A stretch of 64,000 bases of DNA from Diadema setosum. Taxonomy: Eukaryota; Echinodermata; Echinoidea; Diadematoida; Diadematidae. Below, one piece after another: positions 13,056 to 60,200 of this stretch. Both the position numbers and the translations under genes were made by a program. The notes below the pieces were generated by a model. It was not told where the DNA came from. It searched no databases and saw only the letters and a program-made list of their open reading frames with translations. The stretch covers positions 25,934,658-25,998,657 of the forward strand of contig CM067079.1 of NCBI GenBank assembly GCA_033980235.1, given 5' to 3'. Position 1 is the first letter of the stretch, and each line of letters begins with the position of its first letter.

Positions 13056-14202
13056 TGTTACGACCACAATCACTCTGAGAATGATCGCACAAAAGAAACC
13101 ATCAACTAATGTTCAGGCGGTTTATTAACAGTGATATTGTGGGTACAGACTCGTAATCGGTTTTCACATCAGTACAATAACGATCAATACAAACAATTAC
13201 AAATCGGTAATAGAATCACTTACGTGCATTACAATCCAAAATTTGAAAGCAAGTAACCCTTTGACAGTGTCCAGATACGATGTTCGATGCACAGATGAAT
13301 GATCCGCGATGCACCGATGAATGATACCTCAGACGTAAATCCAGAGGCGCAGGTTGTGATAATCCTCGTTATTAATCCGGGGTAAAATCCAAGTTATGTG
13401 TCCACAGCAAAACGTGTAGAATCCAGACGTTATGACGATCACGTTCAGTTGATGTGTTGAATGACGATTCACTTTATATTGTCCAGCAAGGAATCCAGCC
13501 CGTCACAGCTTTGCCGTAATAATGTCCGTTGACACTAAAATATGGAGTCTATCTCCAGCGTAGGCAAATTAATTCTCTGCAGGCAAAATGTCTCCCAGGC
13601 CTTATCTCCACAAACACAGTTTGTATAGCAGGTCAGCAGGTAACACAGGACTGACTATAACAAGTCGCTTCAGAGCCAGAAGTGACGTAACTCTCAGAGC
13701 AGAGGTGTTGGGTACTCTGCCTACAGCAGAATTTCTCCAGCTTATATACTATCCATTCACCCCTTTCTAGTACATTCTGTAATTCTCTCCAACCTGGGGC
13801 TACATACCTGAACATACTAGCAAGTCCAAATTCCAGGAATCCTGGATGACTCACTTCCTAATATGTGCATAACATCATTGCCAAAATTAACTACCAATCA
13901 CATTGGGCTACAAGGGCAGTGCCTCACTCAGCCAGCACTTCCTAGAATTTTCTGGAATGGGTTAAATCATTCTAGATTGAGTGAGCTATAATGTATTTCC
14001 TGTCACATGCATACATGTACTGTAGCTACATTGTATACCACATAGAAAATTCTCCACTGATCTGGTCAGCCTGTATGTACTATATCTAATATCATATAGA
14101 ATGTTCTCCATTAATCTGGTCTACCTGTGTACATACACATTAAACAACCATGCATACAGCCTTGATACATGTACATAACTACTTGTGTGTACATTTGTGA
14201 CA
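13056..14202 (-). repeat. 3' LTR of copy 1
   Basis: In element orientation it runs from 14202 (TGTCACAAATG) down to 13056 (CGTAACA). A good TATA box (TATATAAG) lies on the minus strand near 13743-13750, and an AATAAA signal at 13121-13126. These suggest a U3 of about 0.45 kb, a long R and a short U5, which is inference. Confidence 0.9.
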
Positions 14203-14216
14203 CCATCCCCCATGGG
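14203..14216 (-). other. Polypurine tract, copy 1
   Basis: Directly next to the 3' LTR, the minus strand reads CCCATGGGGGATGG, ending at the TG of the LTR. It is a weak tract broken by a T but is in the right place and is the same in copy 2. Confidence 0.55.
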
Positions 14217-14218
14217 AA

Positions 14219-14250
14219 AAAGAAAGCCTTGCCGTAGCAAGGGTTTCTTT
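14219..14250 (-). ncRNA. Conserved hairpin beside the polypurine tract, copy 1
   Basis: On the element strand two 14-base arms (AAAGAAACCCTTGC and GCAAGGCTTTCTTT) pair at 13 of 14 positions around a four-base loop UACG closed by C-G. C(UACG)G belongs to the very stable UNCG tetraloops. It lies in the non-coding stretch between the integrase stop and the 3' LTR and is also present in copy 2. Role unknown; an RNA export, packaging or priming signal is possible. Confidence 0.6.
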
Positions 14251-14530
14251 TACCTTCACAATTTCTCATTGTTATTTACAACGAATGTGAGGTACAATCC
14301 ACGTCAAGCAACAATAATCACATACTATCACATGTCTTTTGTGTAGCTGCATTAATTCCATGTTCTCTTTTCATGGATACCATTTACATTGATATTGCTT
14401 GGATTCTCGAAGCTTATACAATCATGTCAAACTGTTTTGCATACATTAATGGATATGCTAAACACATACACTGTAAGTGATATGCCGGTGGAAACTTTTC
14501 ACCCTTAACTTCTACTGTGCTATCCACTAT

Positions 14531-17500
14531 CTATGTCACACCAACTGACTTTCTGTCATAGCACTCTTTCAACATGTTGACATGACACATTCTCTGTTCT
14601 TTGCATCTGTCTGGTGTACTGACTACGTAGTTCACGTCATTGAGTTTCTCTTTGACACAGTATGGGCCACTGAACTTGGCTTTCGGTGGTTCACCTTGTA
14701 TGGGCAGCAATACAAGAACTTTGTCACCTGGTTTGAAGGTTCGGGCTTTGGCATTTTTGTCTGCCTTTCTCTTCATTGAATCTTGTGACACTTTCAAGTG
14801 TTCCCTAGCTACCTCACAAGCCTTTGAAAGCCTTTCACGAAACTTCGACACATAGTCAAGTAGGTGGACCTCATCATCCTCAGTCATGAATTTCTCTTTG
14901 ATGAGCTTCAGTGGGCCCCTAACTTCATGACCGTACACCAACTCAAATGGGCTGAAACCCGTCGACTCATTTGGGGAGTCCCTCGTTGCGAACAGCAGGA
15001 AAGGGATGCCCTTATCCCAATCCTCGGGATACTCCTCACAAAATGCCCTAATCATTGTCTTTAGGGTCTGGTGGTAGCGCTCCAACGCACCTTGGGATTG
15101 GGGATGATAAGCTGACGACTTCAGCTGCTTCACACCCAAACGATACATCACCTCTTGAAATATGCCTGACATGAAATTTGACCCTTGGTCAGACTGCACT
15201 TCCTTTGGCAACCCATACCTAGTGAAAAACTGCACTAGAGCATCTACCACAGCCTTAGCAGTGATATTTCTTAATGGGATAGCCTCTGGAAACCGTGTAG
15301 ACATATCCATGATTGTCAAGAGGTACTTATGACCCGACCTAGTCCTAGGCAAAGGTCCAACACAGTCAACTAGAACCCGACTGAATGGTTCTTCAAACGC
15401 AGGTATCGGAATCAATGGCGCCGGCTTCACTGAATGCTGTGGTTTACCAGCCACCTGACATGTGTGACAAGTCTTACAGAACTCAGCCACATCCACATTC
15501 AACCCTGGCCAATAGAAATGCCTCATGATCCGATCCTTTGTCTTTCTGACGCCTAAATGGCCGCCAACTGGTAACTCGTGAGCAATCCTCAAGATCTCAC
15601 CGCGGTAACTAGGAGGGACAACAACTTGACGGACCACCGTCCAATCCTCATCAGCTGGCCTATGGGGAGGTCTCCACTTCCTCATCAAAATGCCATCTTT
15701 GACATAATAGCACTCAGGGACCTTTTCAGCCTCAGCCTCAGAACACGCCGTCTGAGACAAGCCTTTCAACTCAGAGTCTGCCTGCTGTGCTTCAACCAAG
15801 GAAGACTTGCTAAACAGCCCATCACTGTTAGCCTCGGAGCCTAATACAGCAACCCCATCATTCAAATCCTTGAAAAAAGTTTCTGCCAACCAAACACCGG
15901 AATTCTCCTCCACATCAACAGAATCCGCATCATCTTGAACAGCTCTACGAGCCTGAGACCTAGTCACAACACAATCTGGGAAAATCCCAGGAAACTCCTC
16001 CTGCAACTGCTCAGTTTCAGCAACCACCACTGGTTTATCCGAAACAACTGGAGACGCAACCACCTTGTCCCCAGCCAAGTCATTCCCCAACAGGAAGTCA
16101 ATGCCTGCCATGGGCAACTCAGGAACAACTCCAACAGTAACAGGACCAGAAACTAGGTCACACTTCAAATCCACTCTATACAGCGGAACTGACATATAAC
16201 TGCCATCAACAGTCTGAATCAAGACTTTTGCATTCACTGCACTATCTGGTGGAAAAGTCATACCACCATCCACCATCAACGACTGAGAGGCCCCCGTATC
16301 CCGTAGGATGACTACTGGTTTACCTGCCTCACCAGAAGTACATGGGGTCACCTCACCATCAAACAAAAAGCTACGATAGCTCTCATCCACCTGCTTCAGC
16401 CTATCTTTGAATTTGGGAGATCGACTTTCAATGGCCTGTGTTTCACTGAACGGGACACTATTTTCGGGTAGGACACTTTTTGACATGACAAATCCCATGT
16501 CCTTCTTTGTTTTGTTTTGCAACTTCCAACACTGTGACTTTACATGCCCTGTCTTGTTACAGTGAAAACATTTGATGACATTTGCACTTGTACTGGACCC
16601 TTTGTCAGATTGATGCTGTGGTGCAGACAACATTCCTGAACCAGCATTCTGTTGGTTGCTCGACTGATTTTTCTTATTTCCAGAGAAATTTCTGAAAGGT
16701 GGTCTGTTTTCATGTCTGTGAGTTAGCTCATACTCATCAGCCATAAAGGCTGCTTTATGCAAACTTGTCACCTTGTGATCTTCCAGATGCAACCTCACAC
16801 TGAAAGCAACACTCTTTTTGAATTCTTCCAAAAGAACAACCTCACGTAGGTTATCAAAATCCTGATCCACTTTCAGGGATCTATACCACCTATCGAACAT
16901 CATTTCTTTTTCACGAGCAAACTCAACATGTGTCTGGCCTGGTTTGCGGTACGAATTTCTGAACTTATGTCTGTACGCCTCTGGCACCAACTCATAAGCA
17001 TTCAACACTGCCTTCTTGACTGTAGCATAGTCACGTGATTGCTCTTCAGATAGAGACGAGTACACATCGGCAGCTTTGCCGACAAACACACTTTGAAGGA
17101 GCAAGGGCCAAAATTCCTGTGGCCAGTTCAAACTGTTAGCCACCTTCTCAAATGACACAAAATATGCATCAACTCTGTTTTCTTCAAACTTTGGCACCAA
17201 TCGAATGTTCCTAGCCAAATCAAATTCAGGGGGAGCCCTTTCACGATTTCCAACAGTCTGTGCATGAGCCAATTCCATCTCACGCAATTTCAATTGTTGC
17301 TCCATTTTCTTCTCTTCAATTTCAAGTTTCTTCATTTCAATTTCTCTTTGTTCTCTTTCCCTCTCTCTTTCTAATCTCATCTTCTCTTTCTCCATTTCCA
17401 TTTGCAATTTAGCAAGCTCAAGTCGTGTTTGATCTGACATTTGAGCTTGATTTGGAGTGTCAATTTCTTCTTTGAGCTCCATGTGACCAGCTACCAAGTC

Positions 17501-17653
17501 AAGAATTTCTGCCTTTCTTACACCTTGTGGAACATCTACATTTAAATGCTGTGCAATAGCAGTCAAATCACATTTGCGTAACCTTTGCAAATCTTTGAGG
17601 GACAAATCTGTCCTCTGAACAAATGCCTGAACATCCATTGTACTGATTGACAT
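14531..17653 (-). CDS. Gag-protease-integrase polyprotein, copy 1 (no RT)
   Basis: 1040 residues from ATG at 17653, the first ATG shared with copy 2; the frame stays open upstream but has no ATG. In order: a SAP-like helical head (about 19-58), a Glu/Arg/Lys-rich coiled coil (about 75-135), a capsid region (about 145-310) whose C-terminal half resembles the SCAN fold, and a CCHC zinc knuckle (C362, C365, H370, C375). Next come an aspartic protease with DTGAS (D452), a linker, and integrase with HHCC (H692, H699, C729, C732), catalytic D763, D822, E858 (spacing D-35-E) and a GPY motif near 996-998. The protein ends 40 residues later. No YxDD or RNase H motif occurs. In the family the product would form particles, mature them and insert cDNA; cDNA synthesis must come from elsewhere. 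No frameshift or stop was seen. Confidence 0.9.
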   Translation of the reverse strand: MSISTMDVQAFVQRTDLSLKDLQRLRKCDLTAIAQHLNVDVPQGVRKAEILDLVAGHMELKEEIDTPNQAQMSDQTRLELAKLQMEMEKEKMRLEREREREQREIEMKKLEIEEKKMEQQLKLREMELAHAQTVGNRERAPPEFDLARNIRLVPKFEENRVDAYFVSFEKVANSLNWPQEFWPLLLQSVFVGKAADVYSSLSEEQSRDYATVKKAVLNAYELVPEAYRHKFRNSYRKPGQTHVEFAREKEMMFDRWYRSLKVDQDFDNLREVVLLEEFKKSVAFSVRLHLEDHKVTSLHKAAFMADEYELTHRHENRPPFRNFSGNKKNQSSNQQNAGSGMLSAPQHQSDKGSSTSANVIKCFHCNKTGHVKSQCWKLQNKTKKDMGFVMSKSVLPENSVPFSETQAIESRSPKFKDRLKQVDESYRSFLFDGEVTPCTSGEAGKPVVILRDTGASQSLMVDGGMTFPPDSAVNAKVLIQTVDGSYMSVPLYRVDLKCDLVSGPVTVGVVPELPMAGIDFLLGNDLAGDKVVASPVVSDKPVVVAETEQLQEEFPGIFPDCVVTRSQARRAVQDDADSVDVEENSGVWLAETFFKDLNDGVAVLGSEANSDGLFSKSSLVEAQQADSELKGLSQTACSEAEAEKVPECYYVKDGILMRKWRPPHRPADEDWTVVRQVVVPPSYRGEILRIAHELPVGGHLGVRKTKDRIMRHFYWPGLNVDVAEFCKTCHTCQVAGKPQHSVKPAPLIPIPAFEEPFSRVLVDCVGPLPRTRSGHKYLLTIMDMSTRFPEAIPLRNITAKAVVDALVQFFTRYGLPKEVQSDQGSNFMSGIFQEVMYRLGVKQLKSSAYHPQSQGALERYHQTLKTMIRAFCEEYPEDWDKGIPFLLFATRDSPNESTGFSPFELVYGHEVRGPLKLIKEKFMTEDDEVHLLDYVSKFRERLSKACEVAREHLKVSQDSMKRKADKNAKARTFKPGDKVLVLLPIQGEPPKAKFSGPYCVKEKLNDVNYVVSTPDRCKEQRMCHVNMLKECYDRKSVGVT

Positions 17654-17773
17654 TGTCACATGTATTACACACAATGTACAGTTGAACAATCAACTCACTG
17701 GTATTTTGTCTGTACCAATATTCTGGATTCCGGAACGTTCCAAATTCTAAGTTTTGGCTTTAAAATTCACTTC

Positions 17774-17791
17774 TCGGACACAAGCCCCCAA
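17774..17791 (-). other. Primer-binding site, copy 1
   Basis: Three bases (AAT on plus/ATT-type spacer) after the 5' LTR end, the element strand reads TTGGGGGCTTGTGTCCGA. A site starting TGG fits pairing with a tRNA 3' CCA end. TGGGGGCT resembles sites for tRNA-Pro, but the match becomes poor further in, so the tRNA is not certain. Confidence 0.5.
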
Positions 17792-17794
17792 TTT

Positions 17795-18941
17795 TGTTAC
17801 GACCACAATCACTCTGAGAATGATCGCACAAAAGAAACCATCAACTAATGTTCAGGCGGTTTATTAACAGTGATATTGTGGGTACAGACTCGTAATCGGT
17901 TTTCACATCAGTACAATAACGATCAATACAAACAATTACAAATCGGTAATAGAATCACTTACGTGCATTACAATCCAAAATTTGAAAGCAAGTAACCCTT
18001 TGACAGTGTCCAGATACGATGTTCGATGCACAGATGAATGATCCGCGATGCACCGATGAATGATACCTCAGACGTAAATCCAGAGGCGCAGGTTGTGATA
18101 ATCCTCGTTATTAATCCGGGGTAAAATCCAAGTTATGTGTCCACAGCAAAACGTGTAGAATCCAGACGTTATGACGATCACGTTCAGTTGATGTGTTGAA
18201 TGACGATTCACTTTATATTGTCCAGCAAGGAATCCAGCCCGTCACAGCTTTGCCGTAATAATGTCCGTTGACACTAAAATATGGAGTCTATCTCCAGCGT
18301 AGGCAAATTAATTCTCTGCAGGCAAAATGTCTCCCAGGCCTTATCTCCACAAACACAGTTTGTATAGCAGGTCAGCAGGTAACACAGGACTGACTATAAC
18401 AAGTCGCTTCAGAGCCAGAAGTGACGTAACTCTCAGAGCAGAGGTGTTGGGTACTCTGCCTACAGCAGAATTTCTCCAGCTTATATACTATCCATTCACC
18501 CCTTTCTAGTACATTCTGTAATTCTCTCCAACCTGGGGCTACCTACCTGAACATACTAGCAAGTCCAAATTCCAGGAATCCTGGATGACTCACTTCCTAA
18601 TATGTGCATAACATCATTGCCAAAATTAACTACCAATCACATTGGGCTACAAGGGCAGTGCCTCACTCAGCCAGCACTTCCTAGAATTTTCTGGAATGGG
18701 TTAAATCATTCTAGATTGAGTGAGCTATAATGTATTTCCTGTCACATGCATACATGTACTGTAGCTACATTGTATACCACATAGAAAATTCTCCACTGAT
18801 CTGGTCAGCCTGTATGTACTATATCTAATATCATATAGAATGTTCTCCATTAATCTGGTCTACCTGTGTACATACACATTAAACAACCATGCATACAGCC
18901 TTGATACATGTACATAACTACTTGTGTGTACATTTGTGACA
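17795..18941 (-). repeat. 5' LTR of copy 1
   Basis: Same length and nearly the same sequence as 13056-14202. It carries the promoter for the element transcript, which reads leftward through the polyprotein. Confidence 0.9.
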
Positions 18942-19444
18942 CACAAAGCAGGCTTATTGAAAATGATCCCTAAACAGCTATCATGATGTAAAAAAAAACT
19001 TAATGGTTCAGAAATTACAAACTTTATTACTTGTATATCTATACCGTCTATACCTGAACTTACATTACTTTTCATTTCCTCTACAATTGCTATTATCTCT
19101 TTTTTAGATATTGGCTTTAAAAAAAAATATTATTTTTATTAGGGAATTTCAAATGTTAATCATATGAATTCTTATTTCCCTTATCAATACAGATCTGCAG
19201 TTTCTTACCAATACTAACAAAAAGTCATTTAAAAAAAATCAGCAATATCTGTATTATTTGGTATCTTTTCATTCCCAATCTATATACCCTTTAAGAGATT
19301 ATTAATAATTTTTCATGTTGATTAATTTTTTACTCGAAATTTTTCATTTAAATATATCTTTTTGCTTGCCTTATTGTGTTACATAATTCCCAAATTTATT
19401 ATATGCCTCTTTTCTATAAGGGGTTGGTTTCTTAACATAAAGGA

Positions 19445-19478
<34 letters not shown>

Positions 19479-21336
19479 ATACATGCTTATTTTTTTTTTT
19501 TTACGACAAAGCTTAATCAAATCCTCAGTCAACCATGGATTCTTATTCTTCTTCTTATAACTGTATGATTCATAAGGAAAACATTCATCATAAATATCTT
19601 TAAATACTTGCAAAAAACTATCATATTTAAAATCAACACTTTATCAATATAATTTTTTTCCATTCAACATTTTTCAATTTGTAAAAAAGAAAAATCATAT
19701 TTTATTGAGTGATATTACGCTTTACATAAATGGGGAATGGTTTGCTTAAAATTACAATGGGCGATGGATGAGGACATTGGCAAGTGATCACTTATATCAC
19801 TAATCAAAATTCTGGAATGAGTGCAGGTATCAACATTATTTTGTAAATATATTATCCAAAAAAAGTGACAGAGGTCGCAATTATCCGAGTGGGACTTTTA
19901 ATTAAAGTTTCCAAATAAAATCCATACAAAATTAATTAATTAACAACATTTATATAGCGCATTATCACATGAAATGTCTCTAAGCGCTACAGGAAAAGAG
20001 GAGAAAAAAATATCCATAAACAAATCAATTTTTCGCTAAGTCTAAATTCAAATCACCCATTTTAAAACAATTACATACACGTAGATTTACCTTATTTACC
20101 TCATAAATTTGCACATTCACTCAAAAATATCACTGTTATAATTGGGGGACGGTATACCACACCCACAATTGTTGTTGTTGTTTTTTTTACATTTAGCATT
20201 GTTATTTTACTAAAAATACTTTCAAACGCCTCTGCTATAACTGTCAACTCTTGTCTACTAAATGCGTGTAAAGAATTATGAACATAAATTATACACCTGT
20301 TCCACCACCCCATTTGTTAACTCTCTTATTACAAAATGAATTACATTCATCTAAATTATAAACTTCAACTGAAGAAGATTTATTTAACCAAGTTTCAGTT
20401 AGTCCTACTACCTTAGAATTATGATCAGTACTGCTTATATACATATTCAAATTATCGAAAATTTTCGGAAAACTTCTACACAATTAATATGAACTAACGA
20501 AAATGAATTAGAAAATTTTAGCATCTTTATATTTTGAGTTAAACGTTAAAGGCGGGCACATCAAAGTAAGATTCAGGTAAGTTTTGTCCGTCATGGATCG
20601 TATCACACATATACATATTTTTCATATGAGAATATTTAACGGAAAGACAAAATATTCACATCATTAAACACAAGTAATTTAACATAGCTGCTGGAGTTTC
20701 AGAAGATAACGGAGACAAGGTACTGAATAGTAAAATACTGGTACATCATGAAGTACATGGCATTAATGAACACAATATATGACATACAAAACTATAATCT
20801 TGATTGCAGTGAAACAATAAGCAGAATAACATAAATTTGAGTAGAGGATTGTATTTGACACGTATACTTTGTATAAACAGTAATAAACAGGTAAGTATAC
20901 TATGTATTTAAGTAGTAAAAAAATATAGCATTACAAAAGTGATTAAGTGTTATTATGAATCAGCTTCATTCAACTATAATTGTCAATGTAATTTGTTGAT
21001 GTCTTCTTCGCAGGTGATTAGTTTTGTTGCTGTCTTGCCCCCCGAGGCACTGATGAGGGCAATTATCCGTCCATCAGAGGACCGGGCAGCTGTGATGTTT
21101 TTGAAACATGAGCCAGTGACAGCAGTCTTTGATTTCTTTTTGTCAGGTCTTCTGCGTTGACAATCCCTGATCCCTTCGGCTTTTTGCGATTGGTGATGAT
21201 TTCCTTCCTCTTTCTGTAGCTGGTTAGCTTCACGATGATCGGTCGAGGATTGGACTCGATACTTTGACACTATTCTTTGATTTCTTACATGAGGTTTCGA
21301 AGTTTGTCGAATAGTTTCCGACTTTACGGTAAACAC
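18942..21336 (-). mobile_element. Degraded CR1/L2-like LINE (ORF1, endonuclease, start of RT)
   Basis: Read on the minus strand. ORF1 remains lie at about 21270-20985: an RNA-binding segment with PIIVKLTSYR and EDLTKRNQ in one frame, then SSDGRIIALIS in another, so it is frameshifted. ORF2 endonuclease is at about 20490-20100, with GLTETWLN and GVVYRPP signatures split over two frames. Linker and RT-onset words (NPWLTEDLIKL near 19530, VSSGIDGIDIQVIK near 19060) follow. After that the sequence jumps to the 3' tail, so most of RT is deleted. The LTR element then split the tail. The LINE is dead. Confidence 0.7.
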
Positions 21337-21345
21337 TGTAAACTT

Positions 21346-21510
21346 CTGGGCGCCATTTCATAAAGGGTGTTAGGATAGCAACTCTTGCTGGAATGGCAAC
21401 TTCCCATAGCAACAGCCAATGCAGGAAGCTGGATTCTTGTCGTTACCATAACAATTGCCATTCCAGCAAGAGTTCCTACCATATCGACTTTGTTAATGAA
21501 GTAGGGCCCT
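21346..21510. mobile_element. Palindromic MITE, GGGCGCC/GGGCCC ends
   Basis: The left part (GGGCGCCATTTCATAAAG, then CTCTTGCTGGAATGGCAAC) is mirrored by the right part (GCCATTCCAGCAAGAG, then GAAGTAGGGCCC). The whole folds as one imperfect hairpin. No coding sequence. Confidence 0.6.
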
Positions 21511-22572
21511 GGTGTTTGACCATTTTTGACCTTTACCTTGAGCCTCAAGTCAACTGCGAGCATCAAATGAGTGACTTGTCTTTACCATGGCACATCTGGC
21601 TTATCAATATGCAAAGTTTGATTGGAGCTATCATCAGATTTCTCGTTGGATAAACGCTCCTGAAATGTCAATTTCGCCTGTGATCATGTCCCTTTGACCT
21701 TTATCCCTAATCTTATTTTCCTTTAGTCACACACGTATAATTCTGGATAGGGTCAGTATGCTACCTCAACATGCACCCGAACTAAAGAGATACATCACTG
21801 TACATGTAGCAGTCAAGTCGTACTGAGGGAGAAGGGAATTAACTACCAGCCCGTTTAAGTAGAAACTTTCTTTCACATGTGCACAGTCAAGTCATGCAGG
21901 CCAGATAGTCACTAACTGGTGTCAAAGTTTTTGCCTTTCATCTAACATAAAAAAAAAAATGTATGAAATGCGTAGGATTAATGGCTCAAAAATATTTTGT
22001 TTGAGTTAGTTAGTTTAGTCCTTTTTATGAAAATATATCTCCAAAATTTCAGGAGAGTTAGTACGTTTTTGTTTTTGTTTTACTTTTTATGTATTACCTG
22101 AAACAACGGAAGAACGTTTTTGTATTATATGGCGATATAATGTGGCCAGAAATTATTGTATTATACAGACGGACAGTTTGTGTCGTTATACAATTGGCCT
22201 ACTGGCCTGAACTCCATTCGATAAGCTAATACATTTCAAAGCATGTGCTGTATTATCATTCGTCAAGCACAGAAATTTCGCAAGCTCCGGACAAGCTCAG
22301 ACTTTGGACTTTGCATGGACTTTACCCAACTGCACTGGAGATGATCAAACACATAAGCACGTGGTTATAAGATCAAGTTCATTTTCTATTTTTATTTTGG
22401 TACGTTTATGTTGTTTTTATTGCCCATATTACTGCCTAGAAATTAAGCCCGAAAGGAAACAAATACAAATAAGCATCAGAAAGACACATCTTCTCGTAGT
22501 GTGAGCATTGTATTCAACAGTCACGTTGACTGGTTGACGGCGTTCATAGTTTGATCTCCACACTCAACGGCC
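21511..22572. other. Upstream region of the first TMEM254-like gene
   Basis: No coding signal. Presumably contains the 5' UTR and promoter of the gene starting at 22573; no clear TATA box was identified. Confidence 0.4.
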
Positions 22573-23200
22573 ATGATGCAGCAGTCCAAAATGGCGCCTA
22601 GTAAGGGAGATCCAAACTATTTCGAGCTTCCAAGCGTGATCATCATGTTCCTAATTGCATTCGGCATGACTTTGACTGCTGTAAGTAATTACTTTTAATG
22701 AACAGAAATCTGTTCAGTTTGGGCGCTGTGTGTTTTTTTTTTTTTCATTTTATTCAATGTCAATGTTTATTGCAGCCATAACTGGGTGCTTCAGTATGTC
22801 CAAATAAGGGGTCATCCCACGAGTCATACAACTCACGGGTTCGACATTGAAAAAAAAAAGGTCCATGAGTCAAGTAGCCCACGAGTCATACAGCCCATGA
22901 GTTCGACACATGGCCAATAAAGCCCATGAGTTCCACACTAGGTAAAAACATTCCACGACTTCTACATTACAACACGAGGCTTATGTGTCGGTCTCGTGGG
23001 CCTTGTTTGCTTAATGTCGAACTCATGGGCTGTATGACTCATGACCTGTATGACTAATGGACCTTTTTTACCATTATTTTATTAACAAGATAATGTCAAC
23101 GTAAAGTTTACGTTCTTCTCGAACTATGAGTCGCGTTTGCTCCTACTTATACATTAAAGGATGGTATAGTTTTGGTTGAGACGGGACTTCATGTTTCCAA

Positions 23201-23242
<42 letters not shown>

Positions 23243-26200
23243 TAATGAGAAACCTCTTATGGATTATAAAAGCATAAAATTCTCAGAGGTATTGGAAGTT
23301 TATTTGATGAAAATTGGGTTTAAGATGGCTGAGATATCCAAAACCTAAGTAAAACAAAGGGATTCTAATAAAAGGTGGGTCTCACCTTTTATTAGGGTCG
23401 CTTTGTTTTGGATATCTCAGCCATCTCAAAACTAATTTTCATCAAATAAACTTTGAATTCCTCTTAGAATTATATCCTTTTTCATATTTCTCAAGAGGTT
23501 TCTCGTTATCTGAGAAAAAAAAATCAAAAACGTTGGAAACCTTAAAGCCAATCTCAGTGGAAATTGTACCATCCCTTTAAGAAGTTTACAACCTCGTACA
23601 TTCTTCAAGTTCTTCTCGAACTACGAGTCGCGTTTGCATCTATACTTTATAGGGTCGACACAACGATTGACATGTATAGACGTACAAACGTGAGCTATAT
23701 AAACATGTTCTAATGAATAGCAAATAGGTTTATTGAGTTATTTAGTATAGATACTTGCAGTAACAATCATATGATATCTAAAGACCAATTATTTAGATGA
23801 AGAGAATTTATATTGATCCACCATGCAACATACAAGTATAAATGTGAACTTTTCGTCGTGCTGAATTCAGATTCTCACCTTCGTCCATGTTTTCGCAAAC
23901 AGATGTGCGTTTACGCTCCGAACTTGATACCTTTCAACTACCTGGGGTTCATCGGGGATCTGGCTCGATACCTGGCCTACGAAAGACCGAAACTCATCGC
24001 AGGGATGTACGTGGCATTATAATCTTCATATTTATTGCTGAATTTGTACTAAAATCTCGATGTTCTTCTCATAAGAACAAAGACAAGGACAGAAAAACAG
24101 ATTGAAAATAAAATCCAGTGGGGCTGGACGTAAGAAAATATAATTTCCACGAAGCTTTGTGAAGTGCTGATGGATTGGCAGAGAATTCCATTCGTTACGG
24201 AAAGATAATGCTAAATATATGATTCATTAAAACAGAGTTAAAAACCGTTGAAATGCGACTTTTGGTCGTCCCGCGAGGTCTCGGGTTCGAATCCCGCTGA
24301 GTTTTACATCTCTGGACAAGGGATGAGGTTCTTACCCACCCAGCAAATCCCAGTCCACCAAAGTGTGTAAAAATGAGCACCTGGCAATTATGGAATTATA
24401 TAACCGTTAGCATTGTCCAGCAGAATGTCACGGCCCTATGATAGAGCAGCGGCAATACTGACGAGGGTACCCTGTGAAATATGACCAATATTATTTTCAT
24501 TGTCATGATTAGAATCCAGAAAAGCATGAATCACTACACGATAATGAATTGCAATATAGTCATCAACTCTGTAAGGAGGTGCTTGGGTTACGTTAGTTCA
24601 CGTTTTCTGGTCGATGCATATCATTTTATATAATGGCCTCTTTGTCAAAACTTATATGTGACTGTATTCGTACGTGTAAAGATTGGATCCTAATTTGGGA
24701 TTATTTTCTTTCATTCTCTCCGCAGATGGTTCGGAGCAGTCGCAATTCACATATCTGAGGCAATATACGCTTTCTATCTGGCTGGGTGAGTAAACCACAA
24801 GAAGGAAACTTTTTTTTTTCCCCATGACCAATACTTTTATTTTCTTTCATTGTTTATTGAACAAAATCAAACCAAACAATGTATTACAGGAATTATACTG
24901 TCTTTTTATGATTACACAAATCCAAAATATGTCATTTAAGAGACGTCTGTATTATAAAAAACATAACTTTTCAAAGTATCAAAATCGAATTTAAAATTGA
25001 AGAACCAATTTTCTGTCTTCTTTAGCAGATAAATAATACTTTAGATCCTTATTGCGTTTTAACTGAGTTGTGAGGCCAGTAATAGTAAAAGTTTTGGCTT
25101 GGAATTGCAAATCCGATATAAATGCAATACTTAAACAGTAAACTAAAAAACGTTAGAAACTTGTTAAAGCAATCAAGCATTTGTCGAGAGAGATGGAAGG
25201 TGCAACGATTTGATTCCCTTCTCATTGATAATCTATTAAATTATAATAGCAGTCAAAATTGACTTTACATTGAAACATTCGCAAGAATATGAATAAGTGT
25301 ATCATGATCTTTGCCACAAAATGTATAAAAGAGAAATCTGTTCTTTTGATTTTGATCAAGAAGTCATCAAAAGTAATTTGTTTTTAAAAATAACCATGCG
25401 CAATTTCACACATTTATTTTATTTGTATATTCTGTTAAAGAAAGAGAATAAATTTTGAATTTGAAAAATTTGAAATGTGAACAATTTTTGTTTGGAATAT
25501 CTCAAGATGTACAGAGGCGAGCATTGTAGTAAGCATTAAATGAAGTTATTTCTATGCATTTTCTCCATGACCACTATACATGTATATGCCTTATTGCATC
25601 TTTGCATCTCTGTTGAAAAACAACGCAGAAGAAACAGCAAGGTAGTCAGATATCTCGGTGTACCGACCTATGACTAAGTCAGATACTTCGGGTACACACA
25701 CACACACACACACACACAGAGAAATACATGCACACAAACTGATGCGCGGCGACAATTTTTTTTTTTTTTTTTTTTTTTTTTTACCGAGGAGAAACAAAAT
25801 CTCTTTGAAAGAAACTTAAGGGGGTACGTACTAATGGAATAAAGTGTCACCAGTTTACCTCATAAAGTCGGATCATGTCCCAGGATCCATGTTAAAGGTT
25901 TCTCTGTATTTGTTTGCCTTTTTTAACAATTGGTACCTAAAGCCTCAGAATTCCAATAGTGCTTTATTTGCTTTCCATTGATGCCCGTTTTCATTGAAAT
26001 CATCACATTACACTGACTGTTGCATAATAGGATCATTGCAAAGAGATTTTTCTCCTCCTCCTCACCTACTCATTATAAGCTCTTTTGGATCATTGTCACT
26101 TTAAATATTGCATATAGGAAGAAAGGCATCACCGGCTGTGCGCGCATCAAATGGTTCATCTCCACGCTCTGCTTTGGGATAGGCTCACTTGGAATCCTCC

Positions 26201-47960: not shown

Positions 47961-48599
47961 ATCAAAGAGAGAGAGAGAGAGAAGTGAAATCTTTAATTAC
48001 ACCTATATACCTTCCCACAAGGAGAAATGCCACCGTCTACAACCAAAGAGCGACTGGTCATTAATCTTTATAAGCCGTGATGAAATTTGTGTCGTTACCG
48101 CGCTACTCTGTGATAATGGGCAATTTTGAAATTTCATCGTACTTAATATATCCTTCCCATCACAGAAACATGTGATATAAGCTGGAGATATATCTACGAC
48201 TGCCGAGTACTAGTGGATTAGTAGAAACAGGAACACAATGAAACGACATCTGCGTCAAAAGAAACAAGGGGTCGCATAGGGAGCATATTGAGTTTTTGGA
48301 GTCATGTTTATAACTATCATTATAGATATTACTCTTGTTTGACACGTACTTGACACGCTACTGACAATGATGAATTATGATATATTACGAATCACTTAGA
48401 AAGCAAGATGAACTTGCAGGATGAACTAATGTCACTATGGCGTTTGGTATGCCTCCTGATCGGTCTATAGTACGTCTTAACAACGTGTGATGACAGTTTA
48501 ACATAATTGGCAAAATATTACAATGACATGTTTGTCACATATGTTTTGAATATTCCCTGGATGAATGGCTATTGATTATTTCCTAACAGAACATGTATT

Positions 48600-49250: not shown

Positions 49251-50167
49251 TCGTGGCGGATGCATTTTAAAAGAGAGAGAAAACCTTTCAACATAGTAGT
49301 GGACTGAATACTCAGTATGATTTGTATGATTTGTAGCATTCATTGATTTATATGGGGAAATCCCATAATAATTAAGTTGCTTCGACTTGAAGTCATACGA
49401 TAAGAGTAAGAGTCTGTATGTGAAAAAAAAAAACTGGAAGAAAATAGATTCGTAGAAGGAAAGATTGTACCGGTTTATTGTAGGCTTAATATTATGTTTA
49501 CAAGAAAGAATAGATTGTAACATCTTATTGGATCCGACGCGACGTTTCCAAATGTTGAATTAAAAATATTGATTAAACCTTATAATTATGTTTTGAGGAC
49601 TAAAAACTTTGATTATGTTCTGTTATTATTCATGATATTGCAGAGACTTAATTTGAACTGAATTTATTTTCCCTCTGTTAAGTTTGCTCATACAGTTTTA
49701 TCCCTTCCCATGCCATCCACCATGGCACACCTCTTTCACAATATGGTACACTCCACTCTCCTTCTATACCTACCAAGGCACATCTCCATGTCCTACCAGT
49801 AACTGAGCTATTGTTTGAATTTCCCTCCCTTTCTCCTGACTGGTTTTCTCTGTAATGAATATTTATCTGTCCAACCATCCCTGTTACGAATTTACATAGG
49901 AGTCATGAATAGTAATTCACCCTCTGTTGAGATCCTGTGATGAGCCTCTTGAATATTCAGATCCTTCGGTGACCTATTTGTGTACAATGAATATTTATTG
50001 AATGGCAAATGCCTGGATAAGATATACACTAAAATTGCTGGGAAGGACAGTTCGCCAGCAGATCTCGTACAAGCAAGACCGTGTGTCAGCTGCCTCCTAC
50101 TACCACCAAGTTGTACTGCCTCTAAGAATGTAATACCTCCAAATATTCCCATACTGACGGATTATTT
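49251..50167. other. Non-coding region
   Basis: AT-rich, no gene recognised. May include the degraded upstream part of the LINE at 50168. Confidence 0.35.
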
Positions 50168-50737
50168 GTGGAGAATAAGGTTTTGAAAGTAAGGGATTTG
50201 TATTATTACCTTGGTCAATTTATGTACAGTTTGTGTAATAATTCACTTCCTCTAGTTTTTGAAAATATGTTTAATAAGAATAAAAATATTCATAAATACC
50301 CCACTCGTCAAACAGATGAGTATCATTTGCCCCTTACCCGAACTCTATTTACAAAATCCACGTTTATTTACAGTGGCCCCAAATTTTGGAATTCCCTTGG
50401 GAAAAAATATAAAAGATTCCATTAGTTTGAAATCATTCTCTAATAATTTAAAGAAATATTTGATTAGCTCATATGTACCCCATGATTAGTTTGACTGTTT
50501 GGAATTGTTGTTCTTTTTTCTTCACCCTGCATCGAGAATGCTGACCTGCCCTTCGCTCTCTCTACTCCCCCCTCTCTCTCTTTCCCTACTCTCTTCTGTG
50601 TGTGCACAATGTATGGGGATGCAAGCACGTGTGTGTACGTGCGTGTGTGTGCGTATGTGTATGTGTGTACGTGCGTGTGTGTGCGTAAGTGTGTGTGTGT
50701 GTGTGTGTGTGTATGTGCTTGTGTGTGTGTGTGTGTA

Positions 50738-50783
<46 letters not shown>

Positions 50784-51125
50784 CATGTGAAAGCGTATAC
50801 TTCATGTAACCATCCGATTCGATTGAATGAAAACTGTATACTTTCAATGATTAGCTTGTACGGTACATGTATCGTTGTATTGTGTTATAAAGTCATATAT
50901 AATTGATGTATTGTAGTAATGTAACGTAAGTGAGGGGACTGCAATCTGCAAGTTCGCTTTTTAGCAGCCCCTCAATTTTCATTTCCATGAAGTTCTTTTA
51001 AGAACCAATGTGTATTATTATGTTCCAATATGTAATCATGTCAAAGTGTATTACCTGTGTTTGATTGGAAATGAAAAAAAAAAAAAAACATGCATGTGAA
51101 CATGCATGTGTGAAATGAAATGAAA
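50168..51125 (+). mobile_element. 3' end of a CR1/L2-like LINE
   Basis: Residues KYPTRQTDEYHLPLTRT and SGPKFWNSLGK (50290-50410) form the conserved C-terminal block of LINE ORF2. A frameshift follows; the next frame gives SFSNNLKKYLISSY to 50489. The 3' UTR has GGGGACTGCAATCTGC and GCAGCCCCTC, then an A run and TGAAA units near 51107-51125. A GT-rich microsatellite (50625-50790) lies in the UTR. Confidence 0.7.
50625..50790. repeat. GT/GTAT-rich microsatellite
   Basis: About 165 bp of GTGT, GTAT and GTGCGT units. ORFs on both strands here are artefacts. Confidence 0.95.
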
Positions 51126-51246
51126 GAATATGAGAGCGAACCCGGAGCCCTACAATATTTATTTGATGTTTATCTATGGTACTTTAAGTGAAGAACAAAT
51201 GAACTTGTGAGCTGTCCAGCACATTAAGAAAAAATGCCAGTCTTCT

Positions 51247-54200
51247 CTATTCTTCCTGTGGATAATTATTATAGGGACGCATTCCGAACACCAAATCCCT
51301 TTTTTTAAGACGATAATAAATCGAAAGATGTTGTGAAGCGTCAGTCAAGTCAGTCGGGTGAGACGTTCTGATGCATTGGATTGTGCCATTCACGATTGAG
51401 ATCAGCGTTGGATTTCCACATAGCTCGGAATAGGCGGAAAGCATGTGAATTCGTCCGCGGTAAAACACCAAACCATAGGGCCAAATGTTGCGCACAGTAT
51501 AGAAAATGCGAGGGGACGTGGTTCCGTCCATCTGCGCGCGCATGATTTTCAACGTTCCACCGTCTATTGAGTGAAAGAACCAATACATCTGACGCCCTAT
51601 ACGGAAGAAAGAATATGAATAGTTTTATTTTGTCATAGGGGAAAGGTATATAAACGTTTTATCTGATAAATAAAGTAAAATGCTATACGTAAATTGCGTA
51701 CTCATTCATTTTCATTACGGTAATTTATGTAGACAAAAACCCTAAAATGTAAGCATTTGTATACATTGTGTAAACATAGATCACTATCTGCGGATGTGTG
51801 TGTGTGTCTGTGTTTGCATGTTTGTGTGAATCTGTGTGTTTCTGAAGTATTACATGTACCAACAAATTATGTGTTACACAAAGGACGAGGTGACTCGCTT
51901 TTTATCGACTATTAATTCTGATGAAATGTTTCAATCAAGAGTCAATATTGGTTACTGTAGGTTTTCCCGCCAAATTTTATCAGATTTGCATTCGATTTTA
52001 GCGATGAGGTCATGCAAGTTCGAGTGTATTTGAATGATCACCGAGGTCGATATTCAGAAAGGTAACTAGTTCAATCAATTTAATTTTATCAGGATGCGAT
52101 TTCATGAGTTTCTCACATAAGGGTGTAAAAGGGCATTCAAATTAAAAATGCAAGCTAAACGCATTCAAATTCAAATCGTTTTTGCTTTTATTCTTTGTAG
52201 TTATTCAGTTGTTTAAAAATGCAAACTTAGTACCTTCAAATGTGATTTTTTACTCATACTAGCTAATAACTCGCAATACCCCACTTTCAAACACATACAT
52301 TTTCATTTTATTCATACATGATTTTACAGCCGCTGCTACACTACAGAGTATGCCTGAACATCTCAAATACAGACAGAATTAGTGAAAGAAGCATGACCTT
52401 GACAACCAGCAAAATTGGCGATATAACCCTTTGGTGAAACAGGTCTATATACGGCTGATCCGATTGCAGCAACTTATGATATGGAAGCGGGGAACTAAGG
52501 GATGGAATCAAAATGGATCAATATGGATTTGGCCGGACTTATAGGACCCCTAATTCTGGGATATAGCTATTTCCTAAATGTTACATCCATACTGTTTTGG
52601 ATGAATTGAAAGTGACAGAAAGGTCGACAGGAAAGACATATGAAGAGTTTGTTTGCAAAAACTGATAAGTCCATTTTTGAAGATTTTGAAGTACGGTCTG
52701 TTACGACCAAAATCACTCTGAGAATGATCGCACAAAAGAAACCATCAACTAATGTTCAGGCGGTTTATTAACAGTGATATTGTGGGTACAGACTCGTAAT
52801 CGGTTTTCACGTCAGTACAATAACGATCAATACAAACAATTACAAATCGGTAATAGAATCACTTACGTGCATTACAGTCCAAAATTTGAAAGCAAGTAAC
52901 CCTTTGACAGTGTCCAGATACGATGTTCGATGCACAGATGAATAATCCGCGATGCACCGATGAATGATACCTCAGACGTAAATCCAGAGGCGCAGGTTGT
53001 GATAATCCTCGTTATTAATCCGGGGTAAAATCCACAATGTATGTCCACGGCGAAACGTGCAAAATCCAAAAGTTATGACGACCACGTCCAGTTGATGCGT
53101 TGAATGATGATTCACTTTATAATGTCCAGCAAGGAATCCAGCCCGTCACAGCTTTGCCGTAATAATGTCCGTTGACACTAAAATATGGAGTCTATCTCCA
53201 ACGTAGGCAAATTAATTCTCTGCAGGCAAAATGTCTTCCAGGCCTTATCTCCACAAACACAGGTTGTATAGCAGGTCAGCAGGTAACACAGGACTGACTA
53301 TAACAAGTCGCTTCAGAGCCAGAAGTGACGTAACTCTCAGAGCAGAGGTGTTGGGTACTCTGCCTACCTCAGAATTTCTCCTGCTTATATACTATCCATT
53401 CACCCCTTTCTAGTACATTCTGTAATTTTCTCCAACCTGGGGCCACATACCTGAACATACTAGCAAGTCCAAATTCCAGGAATCCTGGATGACTCACTGC
53501 CTAATATGTGCATAACATCATTGCCAAAATTAACTACCAATCACATTGGGCTACAGGGGCAGTGTCTCACTCAGCCAGCACTTCCTAGAATTTTCTGGAA
53601 TGGGTTAAATCATTCTAGATTGAGTGAGCTATAATGTATTTCTTGTCACATGCATACATGTACTGCAGCTACATTATATACCACATAGAAAATTCTCCAC
53701 TGATCTGGTGAGCCTGTATGTACTATATCTATATCATATAGAATGTTCTCCATTAATCTGGTCACCTTGTGTACATACACATTAAACAACCATGCATACA
53801 GCCTTGATACATGTACATAACTACTTGTGTGTACATTTGTGACACCATCCCCCATGGGAAAAAGAAAGCCTTGCCGTAGCAAGGGTTTCTTTTACCTTCA
53901 CAATTTCTCATTGTTATTTACAACGAATGTGAGGTACAATCCAAATCAAGCAACAACAATCACATACTATCACATGCCTTTTGAATAGCTGCATTAATTC
54001 CATGTTCTCTTTTCATGGATACCATTTACATTGATATTGCTTGTATTCTTGAAGCTTATACAATCATGTCAAACTGTTTTGCATACATTAATGGATATGC
54101 TAAACACATACACTGTAAGTGATATGCGGTGAAAACTTTTCACCCTTAACTTCTACTGTGCTATCCACTATCTATGTAACACCAACTGACTTTGTGTCAT

Positions 54201-57200
54201 AGCACTCTTTCAACATATTGACATGACACATTCTCTGATCTGTGCTCCTGTCTGGCGTACTGATCACATAGTTCACATCATTGAGTTTCTTTTTGACACA
54301 GTATGGGCCACTGAACTTGGCTTTCAGTGGTTCACCTTGTATGGGCAGCAGTACAAGAACTTTGTCACCTGGTTTGAAGGTTCGAGCTTTGGCATTTTTG
54401 TCTGCCTTTCTCTTCATTGAGTCTTGTGACACTTTCAAGTGTTCCCTAGCTACCTCACAAGCCTTTGAAAGCCTTTCACGAAACTTTGACACATAGTCAA
54501 GTAGGTGGACCTCATCATCCTCAATCATGAATTTTTCTTTGATGAGCTTCAGTGGGCCCCTAACTTCATGACCGTACACCAACTCAAATGGGCTGAAACC
54601 CGTCGACTCATTTGGGGAGTCCCTCGTTGCGAACAGCAGGAAAGGGATGCCCTTATCCCAATCCTCGGGATACTCCTCACAAAATGCCCTAATCATTGTC
54701 TTTAGGGTCTGATGGTAGCGCTCCAACGCACCTTGGGATTGGGGATGATAAGCTGACGACTTCAGCTGCTTCACACCCAAACAATACATCACCTCTTGAA
54801 ATATGCCTGACATGAAATTTGACCCTTGGTCAGACTGCACTTCCTTTGGCAACCCATACCTAGTGAAAAACTGCACTAGAGCATCTACCACAGTCTTAGC
54901 AGTGATATTTCGCAACGGAATAGCCTCTGGAAACCGTGTAGACATATCCATGATTGTCAAGAGGTACTTATGACCCGACCTAGTCCTAGGCAAAGGTCCA
55001 ACACAGTCGACTAGAACCCGACTGAATGGTTCTTCAAACGCAGGTATCGGAATCAATGGCGCCGGCTTCACTGAATGCTGTGGTTTACCAGCCACCTGAC
55101 ATGTGTGACAAGTCTTGCAAAACTCAGCCACATCCACATTCAACCCTGGCCAATAGAAATGCCTCATGATCCGATCCTTTGTCTTTCTGACGCCTAAATG
55201 GCCGCCAACAGGTAACTCGTGAGCAATCCTCAAGATCTCACCGCGGTAACTTGGAGGGACAACAACTTGACGGACCACCGTCCAATCCTCATCAGCTGGC
55301 CTATGGGGAGGTCTCCACTTTCTCATCAAAATGCCATCTTTGACATAATAGCACTCAGGGACCTTTTCAGCCTCAGCCTCAGAACACGCCGTCTGAGACA
55401 AGCCTTTCAACTCAGAGTCTGCCTGCTGTGCTTCAACCAAGGAAGACTTGCTAAACAGCCCATCACTGTTAGCCTCGGAGCCTAATACAGCAACCCCATC
55501 ATTCAAATCCTTGAAAAAGGTTTCTGCCAACCAAACACCGGAATTCTCCTCCACATCAACAGAATCCGCATCATCTTGAACAGCTCTACGAGCCTGAGAC
55601 CTAGTCACAACACAATCTGGGAAAATCCCAGGAAACTCCTCCTGCAACTGCTCAGTTTCAGCAACCACCACTGGTTTATCTGAAACAACTGGAGACGCAA
55701 CCACCTTGTCCCCAGCCAAGTCATTCCCCAACAGGAAGTCAATGCCTGCCATGGGCAACTCAGGAACAACTCCAACAGTAACAGGACCAGAAACTAGGTC
55801 ACACTTCAAATCCACTCTATACAGTGGTACTGACATATAACTGCCATCAACAGTCTGAATCAAGACTTTTGCATTCACTGCACTATCTGGTGGAAAAGTC
55901 ATACCACCATCCACCATCAACGACTGAGAGGCCCCCGTATCCCGCAGGATGACTACTGGTTTACCTGCCTCACCAGAAGTACATGGGGTCACCTCACCAT
56001 CAAACAAAAAGCTACGATAGCTCTCATCCACCTGCTTCAGCCTATCTTTGAATTTGGGAGATCGACTTTCAATGGCCTGTGTTTCACTGAACGGGACACT
56101 ATTTTCGGGTAGGACACTTTTTGACATGACAAATCCCATGTCCTTCTTTGTTTTGTTTTGCAACTTCCAACACTGTGACTTTACATGCCCTGTCTTGTTA
56201 CAATGAAAACATTTGATGACATTTGCACTTGTACTGGACCCTTTGTCAGATTGAGGCTTTGGTGCCGATGAAGTTTCAGAACTCGTGCCTTTTTCAGGAC
56301 CAGCATTCTTTGGATTGCTCGACTGATTTTTGTCTCTTTTATTTCCAGAGAAATTCCTGAAAGGTGGTCTGTTGTCATTTCTGTGGGTCAGCTCATACTC
56401 ATCAGCCATCAAGGCTGCTTTATGCAAACTTGTCACTTTGTGATCATCCAAATGTGACCTCACACTGAAAGCAACACTCTTTTTGAATTCTTCCAAGAGA
56501 ACAACCTCACGTAGGTTATCAAAATCCTGATCCACTTTCAGGGACCTGTACCACCTATCGAACATCATTTCTTTTTCACGAGCAAACTCAACATGTGTCT
56601 GGCCTGGTTTGCGGTACGAATTTCTGAACTTGTGTCTGTACGCCTCTGGCACCAACTCATAAGCATTCAACACTGCCTTCTTGACTGTAGCATAGTCACG
56701 TGATTGCTCTTTTGAGAGAGATGAGTACACATCGGCTGCTTTGCCGACAAACACACTTTGAAGGAGCATGGGCCAAAATTCCTGTGGCCAGTTCAAACTG
56801 TCAGCCACCTTCTCAAATGACACAAAATATGCATCAACTCTGTTTTCTTCAAACTTTGGCACCAATCGAATGTTTTTGGCCAAATCAAATTCAGGGGGAG
56901 CCCTTTCACGATTGTCAACAGTATGTGCATGAGTCAATTCCATCTCACGCAATTTCACTTGTTGCTCCACTTCAAATTTCTTAATTTCCAGTTCCTTTTC
57001 TCTCAATTCCATTTCTCTAGCCCTTTGCTCTCTTTCTATTTCTCTTTGTTTTTCCCTTTCCTTCATTTCCAATCTCATCTTCTCTTTCTCTATTTCCAAT
57101 CTCGCAAGCTCAAGCCGTGTTTGATCTGAAATTTGAGCTTGAACTGGAGTGTCAATTTCTTCTTTGAGCTCCATGTGACCAGCTACTAAGTCAAGAATCT

Positions 57201-60200
57201 CTGCCTTTCTTACACCTTGTGGAACATCTACATTCAAATGCTGTGCAATGGCAGTCAAATCACATTTGCGTAACCTTTGCAAATCTTTGAGGGACAAATC
57301 TGTCCTCTGAACAAATGCCTGAACATCCATTGTACTGATTGACATTGTCACAATGTATGACACACAGTATACAATTGAACAATCAACTCACTGGTATTTT
57401 GTCTGTACCAATATTCTGGATTCCGGAACGTTCCAAATTCTAAATTTTGGCTTTAAATTCACTTCTCGGACACAAGCCCCCAATTTTGTTACGACCAAAA
57501 TCACTCTGAGAATGATCGCACAAAAGAAACCATCAACTAATGTTCAGGCGGTTTATTAACAGTGATATTGTGGGTACAGACTCGTAATCGGTTTTCACGT
57601 CAGTACAATAACGATCAATACAAACAATTACAAATCGGTAATAGAATCACTTACGTGCATTACAGTCCAAAATTTGAAAGCAAGTAACCCTTTGACAGTG
57701 TCCAGATACGATGTTCGATGCACAGATGAATAATCCGCGATGCACCGATGAATGATACCTCAGACGTAAATCCAGAGGCGCAGGTTGTGATAATCCTCGT
57801 TATTAATCCGGGGTAAAATCCACAATGTATGTCCACGGCGAAACGTGCAAAATCCAAAAGTTATGACGACCACGTCCAGTTGATGCGTTGAATGATGATT
57901 CACTTTATAATGTCCAGCAAGGAATCCAGCCCGTCACAGCTTTGCCGTAATAATGTCCGTTGACACTAAAATATGGAGTCTATCTCCAACGTAGGCAAAT
58001 TAATTCTCTGCAGGCAAAATGTCTTCCAGGCCTTATCTCCACAAACACAGGTTGTATAGCAGGTCAGCAGGTAACACAGGACTGACTATAACAAGTCGCT
58101 TCAGAGCCAGAAGTGACGTAACTCTCAGAGCAGAGGTGTTGGGTACTCTGCCTACCTCAGAATTTCTCCTGCTTATATACTATCCATTCACCCCTTTCTA
58201 GTACATTCTGTAATTTTCTCCAACCTGGGGCCACATACCTGAACATACTAGCAAGTCCAAATTCCAGGAATCCTGGATGACTCACTGCCTAATATGTGCA
58301 TAACATCATTGCCAAAATTAACTACCAATCACATTGGGCTACAGGGGCAGTGTCTCACTCAGCCAGCACTTCCTAGAATTTTCTGGAATGGGTTAAATCA
58401 TTCTAGATTGAGTGAGCTATAATGTATTTCTTGTCACATGCATACATGTACTGCAGCTACATTATATACCACATAGAAAATTCTCCACTGATCTGGTGAG
58501 CCTGTATGTACTATATCTATATCATATAGAATGTTCTCCATTAATCTGGTCACCTTGTGTACATACACATTAAACAACCATGCATACAGCCTTGATACAT
58601 GTACATAACTACTTGTGTGTACATTTGTGACACGGTCTCTGTCATAAAGTACAAAATAATACCTTTTAAATTATATATTGGTCACTATGTATAAAGGTAT
58701 ATTTTTGAAGTTATGGTCAAAAGAAGCAAAAATTTTCTTATTATTCTCTTTATTTTTCTTGACCTTTAATCGCAAATATCTCCATTTGACAAATATGGAC
58801 TTATCGGTTTTTGCAAACAAACTCTTCATATACATCCATTAAAATTACGATAATTAAATGAGACTTTGAAATGAAAATGAAATTATATCATCCAATCGTA
58901 TGAAAAAAAGGCCAGTAGAAGTTGTGTTATGTTGATGGAATTCGAACCTTCAAAGTGCGAAGTTGTGTTTTTATAAATGAAATCGAAGTGGTATATGGCA
59001 CGAATTTGAACGTCTACCAAGCTTGCATGCCAACCTTGAGTCGTTAAATTGAATGAATTTCTCTCTAAATTGCATGAAATATAATCTAATATGAATGACA
59101 CGAAATGAAATTGAATACTCGAAGAATTAAAATGAAACGTGAGAGAGCACAGCAGTGACCAAAATCATTTGAATATGAACTCCTTTTCATTATTTCGAAT
59201 GCAAATCTGATGAAATTGAGTGGGAAAACCGATAATAGAATACAAAGGCAGGATCGAGGAGCAGATCGATAAGTTGATCTATGGGTCGGCACGTGTGCTC
59301 AAGTACCTGCACGAAACAAGAACAATTCGACTACTGTGTAGTCTACATATCAGCTTAATGTATGTTTCCTCTTTTCATGCAGCCAATTTACCTTTCGAAC
59401 AGTTACTTGGCACTTCATTTATCATCTCACCTTGAACAAAGACAACTTCCAGAAATTCAGTGCGAATTCTGCGCGGGCAGAGGCACAAAGAACATGACAT
59501 TTGCAGCAAGACAGCTTCAAAAGAAGTGTCAAGACCAGAACAGGGACCGATAGACGAACAACAACAGTTACAATTTATGAAGATTCAGACTTGGAGTTCA
59601 CAGCCGGAATATGGCATCCTGTAATAACCTAAACGTTTCGATTCCTTTGACCTTGAGCTTTGATCTATCTCCTGTGTAATTTCAGGCAATTCGACTTATT
59701 CAGTACATAATGATTCATTATCACCGGATATTTCACATGAGTTATCCCTACATAATTTGCATAAATCATTGTATTTTGACAATAGGACGGTGTTCTTTGA
59801 CCTATATACCACAACCAATGTAATGTTCATTAAAAACATTTGCTAATTTATTCGTAAACCTTTAAAGCACCACCTTGAATGGGGACTGGACAGTGTACAG
59901 TGATGTTGGACCTTTATCTTTTAGCTTTTACCAATGCAATTTTAGAAACAACTGCCTACTTATCTTTTTGCCCACTTGCTCAGCAATTCTATACGACATG
60001 CATCGTACTTGGCAAAGAGTTATAAAAACAAAACAAATGAATTTAACATCACCAACTTCAATAAAGTGATGTGGGTGCGACGCACAGACGGACCGACAGA
60101 CAAATATGAATCATATACTTTTTTTTCAGAGTCAATTACAAAGATCAAATAAAAAAGAAGATGAAGAAGAGGTACGAGTTTATCCATTAGTGTGTACAAT

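Follow-up and report, generated by a model that had tools for sequence, protein, structure and literature searches.

Two Gmr1-like LTR elements that encode Gag, protease and integrase, and the probable borrowing of a reverse transcriptase

How does a long terminal repeat (LTR) retrotransposon keep moving when it encodes Gag, a protease (PR) and an integrase (IN) but no reverse transcriptase (RT)? The question is raised by elements A (13056-18941) and B (52699-58632), both on the minus strand of a 64,000-nucleotide stretch of the sea urchin Diadema setosum (assembly GCA_033980235.1, contig CM067079.1, positions 25,934,658 to 25,998,657; hereafter the window, in whose numbering all positions are given). 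We consider it probable, at roughly 70%, that A and B represent a semi-autonomous Gmr1-like Ty3/gypsy family which supplies its own Gag, PR and IN and borrows RT and RNase H, the term family resting here on two copies in one window.

Two young insertions with one open frame each

A first-pass annotation, made from the letters alone, had described two full copies with intact LTRs, target-site duplications and a single Gag-PR-IN frame, and alignment of the LTRs, the open reading frames (ORFs) and Pfam searches all bear this out. Element A measures 5886 bp, and its 5' LTR (17795-18941) and 3' LTR (13056-14202), 1147 bp each, are 99.91% identical, with one mismatch in 1148 aligned columns; element B measures 5934 bp, and its LTRs (5' at 57487-58632, 3' at 52699-53844), 1146 bp each, are 100% identical over 1147 aligned columns, the last column of either alignment being a chance flanking base. 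A is enclosed by the duplication CACA (4 bp; 13052-13055 on the left, 18942-18945 on the right) and B by CGGTC (5 bp; 52694-52698 and 58633-58637), the unequal length being a small oddity. Between the two elements identity is 95.7% over 5945 columns (185 mismatches, the remainder gaps), far below that within the LTR pairs, so the two inserted separately and recently, out of a lineage that is older. When A with 500 bp of flank on each side was compared with B by BLAST, the match ended at the element edges and the flanks were unrelated, so that A and B are not one segmental duplication, which was part of the outcome that the annotation had itself named as telling against its view. A and B are young, independent insertions, and the recent activity proposed for them agrees with the near-identical LTR pairs, the different target duplications and the unrelated flanks.

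The frame of A encodes 1040 amino acids (aa) from its ATG (17653-14531, stop TAG at 14531-14533) and that of B 1057 aa (57345-54172, TAG at 54172-54174); the ORF lengths of 1052 and 1063 aa originally listed begin at TTG and GTG codons, respectively. In A we found a SCAN-type capsid (16730-17224; Pfam SCAN 29.2 bits against a cut-off of 27, with a profile coverage of 1.0), a CCHC zinc knuckle recognised by its motif (16529-16570), an aspartic protease (16010-16342, with DTGA at 16289-16300) and an integrase with HHCC, D,D-35-E and GPY motifs (14546-15718). The corresponding parts of B are a capsid at 56395-56889 (30.6 bits, with a capsid-like fold in the model), a protease at 55651-55983 and an integrase with the same three motifs at 54190-55359. 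SCAN, Integrase_H2C2, rve and Integrase_p58_C exceed the curated Pfam cut-offs in both ORFs; zf-CCHC scores below its own (17.1 against 20.8), yet the CCHC motif is present. The catalytic triad was verified as D775/D834/E870 in A and D786/D845/E881 in B (numbering of the 1052 and 1063 aa frames). With a protease and a complete integrase, Gag is not the sole protein of either element.

An intact Gag whose model shows a capsid-like fold also brings to mind a domesticated or non-transposing particle gene that spread by other means; a developmental role is documented for Bik-1, a zebrafish family with Gag alone that was active recently (PMC10996621). A domesticated gene would be immobile and without LTRs, but A and B are LTR-bounded copies whose near-identical LTR pairs, target duplications and conserved integrase speak for recent retrotransposition. 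We regard domestication as barely credible; neither domestication, which the annotation had suggested, nor a particle system outside transposition finds support, since near-identical LTRs and target duplications in copies that are 95.7% identical fit a mobile family.

Loss of reverse transcriptase after integrase

Past the stop codon only 328 bp of non-coding sequence remain in A (14203-14530), of which the first 33 nt align to a relative's frame, and 327 bp in B (53845-54171), leaving no room for RT and RNase H, as had been claimed. Pfam searches at E up to 1 found no RVT or RNase H family in either ORF. The annotation had proposed four profiles as a check, and of these SCAN and rve score above their cut-offs and RVT_1 and RNase_H give nothing; as a positive control, the same library detects RVT_1 (E 4.6e-35), RT_RNaseH and RT_RNaseH_2 in P0001, a relative in public data. 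Across all six frames, stretches between stops reach at most 80 aa in the remainder of A, 46 aa in that of B and 65-74 aa in the three LTRs checked. With six relatives as queries, five of them RT-bearing, tblastn matches in the window (E <= 1e-3) were confined to Gag-PR-IN of A and B and the 33 nt beyond. RT and RNase H are not encoded, and neither A nor B is autonomous.

Searched against proteins, the integrase part gave 3291 matches, of which the best 120 were listed. Among these the best is P0001, 89% identical in integrase and carrying RT and RNase H directly after it (the record is N-terminally incomplete and begins inside Gag), and the best named matches are from Lytechinus pictus, 80-81% identical over the integrase part, which places the host close to the echinoids. 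Both P0001 and P0004, an RT-bearing and likewise echinoid-like relative with 81% identity in integrase, resemble A and B in Gag, PR and IN and differ from them in the RT and RNase H located after integrase; P0004 is a single frame of 1557 aa from Gag to RNase H. The nearest relatives with an RT, P0001, P0003 and P0004, have integrase ahead of it; A and B themselves have no RT to order. The TAG stop of A and B aligns with a glutamine of P0001, and about ten codons downstream of it still align in frame, so the reading frame once extended further and the loss of RT and RNase H is derived. This agrees with the founder that the annotation had postulated, one that lost RT-RNase H after integrase, where the nearest RT-bearing relatives carry it. 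Both the TAG and the deletion are shared, which argues that the ancestor of the 3' part was already RT-less. The integrase-first domain order explains how one deletion could leave a clean Gag-PR-IN.

A second protein of the same family, P0002 (1172 aa, 30 cluster members, on a 35.9 kb contig), is likewise Gag-PR-IN without RT, but it extends about 105 residues beyond the position of the A/B stop, and its last 70 or so are dissimilar to P0001. Over 944 columns it shares 91.5% identity with P0001, and a search with its last 113 residues matched only P0002 itself and P0001 (53%). P0002 probably represents an independent loss of RT, judging from these comparisons. A likeness between its C-terminus and the end of A and B was taken as chance, because the alignment places the A/B end about 100 residues earlier.

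The position of the junction, just past integrase in both A and B, would also be expected if a subgenomic RNA of an RT-bearing element, in which splicing connects the IN-RT linker with the 3' region, had been repeatedly packaged and reverse transcribed, every RT-less copy then being a new by-product; the single-frame element BARE1 does produce a spliced Gag RNA (PMC3735527). However, TAG stands in place of glutamine upstream of the junction in both copies, so that an RT-bearing parent would need readthrough, and P0002 ends differently. We hold such an origin to be highly improbable.

In a tree of integrases (78 sequences, 132 before near-duplicates were removed, no named Gmr1 reference among them) A and B are paired (support 0.992) and grouped with P0001, P0002 and P0034 (0.994). 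RT is present in P0001 alone among these five; of the 21 sequences in the wider clade around them (0.934), 14 carry it. P0034, whose contig measures 3.2 kb, groups with A and B at a support of only 0.135 and is uninformative. P0017 and P0029 had an RT-less look but were rejected, their sequences running into RT and ending there, and P0006 was set aside as a gene model. P0045, a Gag-PR-IN protein of 1156 aa with 297 cluster members, ends in the IN-RT linker and is 93% identical to the complete P0067; it is possibly a further RT-less family in another host, although P0045 and P0164 are leads only, as cluster size may count fragments.

The annotation had referred to Gmr1-like elements of deuterostomes with integrase before RT. 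The order stands in the relatives; the restriction to deuterostomes does not, since the mollusc Pinctada imbricata appears among the 120 best integrase matches. Gmr1 elements have also been reported in an annelid (PMC8220671). Gmr1 elements have been linked to the SCAN domain (PMC4592553), which the Gag of both ORFs contains, and from SCAN and the domain order of the relatives we file A and B, on sequence grounds, as semi-autonomous Gmr1-like LTR retrotransposons. Zebrafish BHIKHARI was dropped as an identity, Bik-1 being Gag only and the nearest named relatives of A and B echinoid. A search of viral contigs found no relative, and one of prokaryote contigs found three contaminant loci, too distant for comparison of LTRs. 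The first (L001, 1-6369 of NZ_JASJAV010000046.1), filed under a Breoghania metagenome-assembled genome (MAG), is an animal-type Gmr1-like element whose open frame spans 1586 codons; the contig begins and ends with the same 129 bp, as a circular molecule would, and it is contamination, perhaps from an extrachromosomal circle. The other two (L002 and L003; NJBF01000089.1 and NJBF01000101.1), filed under a Heimdallarchaeota MAG, hold animal-type Gmr1-like polyproteins.

Constraint, mosaic divergence and a proposed route of movement

The ratio of nonsynonymous to synonymous change (dN/dS) between A and B is 0.21, and 0.045 within codons 401-1000; of 235 conserved columns, 224-225 are retained. The frames thus look constrained, in line with the selection on the proteins that the annotation had proposed, as far as a two-copy comparison goes; intact LTRs, at least one intact protein under constraint and a missing RT mark a semi-autonomous element, and A and B show all three, while an autonomous partner with matching LTR ends, primer site and polypurine tract would be expected in the same genome as well.

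Divergence between the two copies is, at the same time, mosaic. Across the frames (14531-17689 against 54172-57363) and flanking parts it is 0.7% in nucleocapsid and protease (NC/PR), 6-10% in gag, and about 3% in LTRs, integrase and 3' region; in 250-column stretches it spans 0.4-1.2% in NC/PR and reaches 10-17% in parts of gag. Synonymous change differs 4-fold in odds between codons 1-400 and codons 401-1000 (p 9e-7), and part of the gag difference falls in a coiled coil with indels. Such a mosaic makes recombination among element lineages likely. It also weighs, together with a comparable recombination reported for the wheat lineages Cereba and Quinta (PMC11302176), against the semi-autonomous reading: RT-less copies might contribute nothing, move on the proteins of an RT-bearing sister and import selected sequence by template switching, and part of the constraint may stem from time spent in RT-bearing copies. 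Yet A and B have in common the TAG, the deletion and changes at two conserved residues; in protein they resemble each other more than either resembles P0001 in 9 of 9 comparable windows, and the constraint extends into the integrase, near the deletion. That the copies are mere passengers is therefore, in our judgement, unlikely.

Under the semi-autonomous reading, a founder with Gag-PR-IN-RT-RNase H would have undergone a deletion that starts about ten codons beyond today's stop and reaches the 3' untranslated region, with a glutamine codon just upstream of it turned into TAG. The shortened element retains LTRs, a putative primer-binding site and a putative polypurine tract, and its Gag-PR-IN polyprotein appears functional. 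Its RNA would be packaged in particles of its own Gag, possibly mixed with that of a partner, presumably another, complete sister element of the kind exemplified by the RT-bearing P0001. RT-RNase H would enter these particles within the partner's full polyprotein and make complementary DNA from the element's RNA through the element's own primer site and polypurine tract, and insertion may be completed by either the element's or the partner's integrase. Continued constraint on the frames makes it probable that the proteins of the element act preferentially on its own RNA (cis preference). Complete relatives in this clade have one long frame each, so that an RT-less copy could moreover serve as a source of Gag-rich product; a complete element would have to obtain this in some other way, for instance by splicing, through which BARE1 raises its Gag (PMC3735527).

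The signals on which this route would depend are candidates from sequence, all on the minus strand of A: a primer-binding site at 17775-17790, 4 nt past the 5' LTR, and a polypurine tract at 14203-14211. Just upstream of the latter lies a strong RNA hairpin with a UACG loop (14218-14251; 91-nt fold of -32.2 kcal/mol, z -4.54), identical in sequence in B. An Rfam scan of the window at gathering scores gave no match, the hairpin included. Elsewhere in the window, a 113-aa ORF at 51247-51588 on the minus strand seems to resemble low-density lipoprotein receptor class B (YWTD) repeats, and we take it to be perhaps a host exon.

Integrase-less relatives and comparison with known elements

A search with the Gag part gave 1410 matches, the best 120 of which, together with the integrase listing, make up 227 different proteins. 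These are database proteins picked by likeness to the A/B Gag and by length, so that the counts that follow are not genome frequencies. Hidden Markov models of seven domains, derived from 18 complete relatives and applied to the 227 proteins and to A and B, gave 45 classes of domain architecture, with 36 proteins complete from capsid to RNase H. Sixty-two proteins have capsid, PR, integrase C-terminus, RT and RNase H without the integrase zinc domain or core, and at any coverage this type accounts for 74 of the 227 (within the range P0127-P0227). YIDD is kept in 70 of the 74 and DTGA in 73, a junction motif with small variants is common to 65 (the other 9 fall outside the search pattern), and all 70 that were compared have P0154 as their closest neighbour (87-98% identity). 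Aligned to P0154, the proteins P0137, P0167 and P0184 show a single in-frame loss of roughly 240 residues. The same clade would therefore also have a multiplied integrase-less form, although a predicted intron is a possible source of the gap. Like A and B, these relatives belong to the clade, have a single frame and have had one pol enzyme removed in frame; unlike them, they have lost the IN core and kept RT, and they were not seen in the host group of the window. On the other side, 21 of the 227 proteins have Gag and integrase core without RT, many of them, judging from how they end, broken or contig-cut copies, P0002 being the firmest second case.

A more far-reaching idea, which we put forward as doubtful, is that integrase-first elements have repeatedly split into complementary halves, one RT-less (A and B, P0002) and one integrase-core-less, each open-framed and the latter at least multiplied. 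If so, copies would share the work instead of one kind simply parasitising another, and the split might be a genomic way of setting the Gag:RT:IN ratio, as the complete members are single frames with no Gag-Pol shift.

Several known LTR families lack part of their proteins. The wheat RLG_Sabrina_SA and RLG_WHAM, described as semi-autonomous, resemble A and B in having an intact partial frame, no RT and a likely autonomous partner that moves them, but they encode Gag-protease only, without integrase (PMC9744471). Zebrafish BHIKHARI-1 is, like A and B, a recently active animal LTR family without RT and with a coiled-coil and capsid Gag; unlike them it is Gag only, with no pol component predicted, and is related to the lokiretrovirus clade (PMC10996621). 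TR-GAG, a non-autonomous LTR element with intact Gag whose transposition has been observed, is again Gag only (PMC8704663), and RLG_Quinta, also non-autonomous with intact Gag, has Gag and a domain of unknown nature (PMC11302176). Barley BARE2 resembles A and B in that one polyprotein function is missing and a sister supplies it, but it is Gag synthesis that is missing there, with pol kept (PMC3735527). Our literature search, which covered few subscription papers, found no description of a Gag-PR-IN family without RT. What is new in A and B is thus the integrase kept without RT, the described semi-autonomous LTR families that we found keeping Gag or Gag-protease.

That an element without RT keeps a constrained integrase shows which proteins it pays an element to encode itself. 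Taken together with the integrase-less relatives, it makes testable both the contrast of cis preference with shared proteins and the Gag:Pol ratio in single-frame elements.
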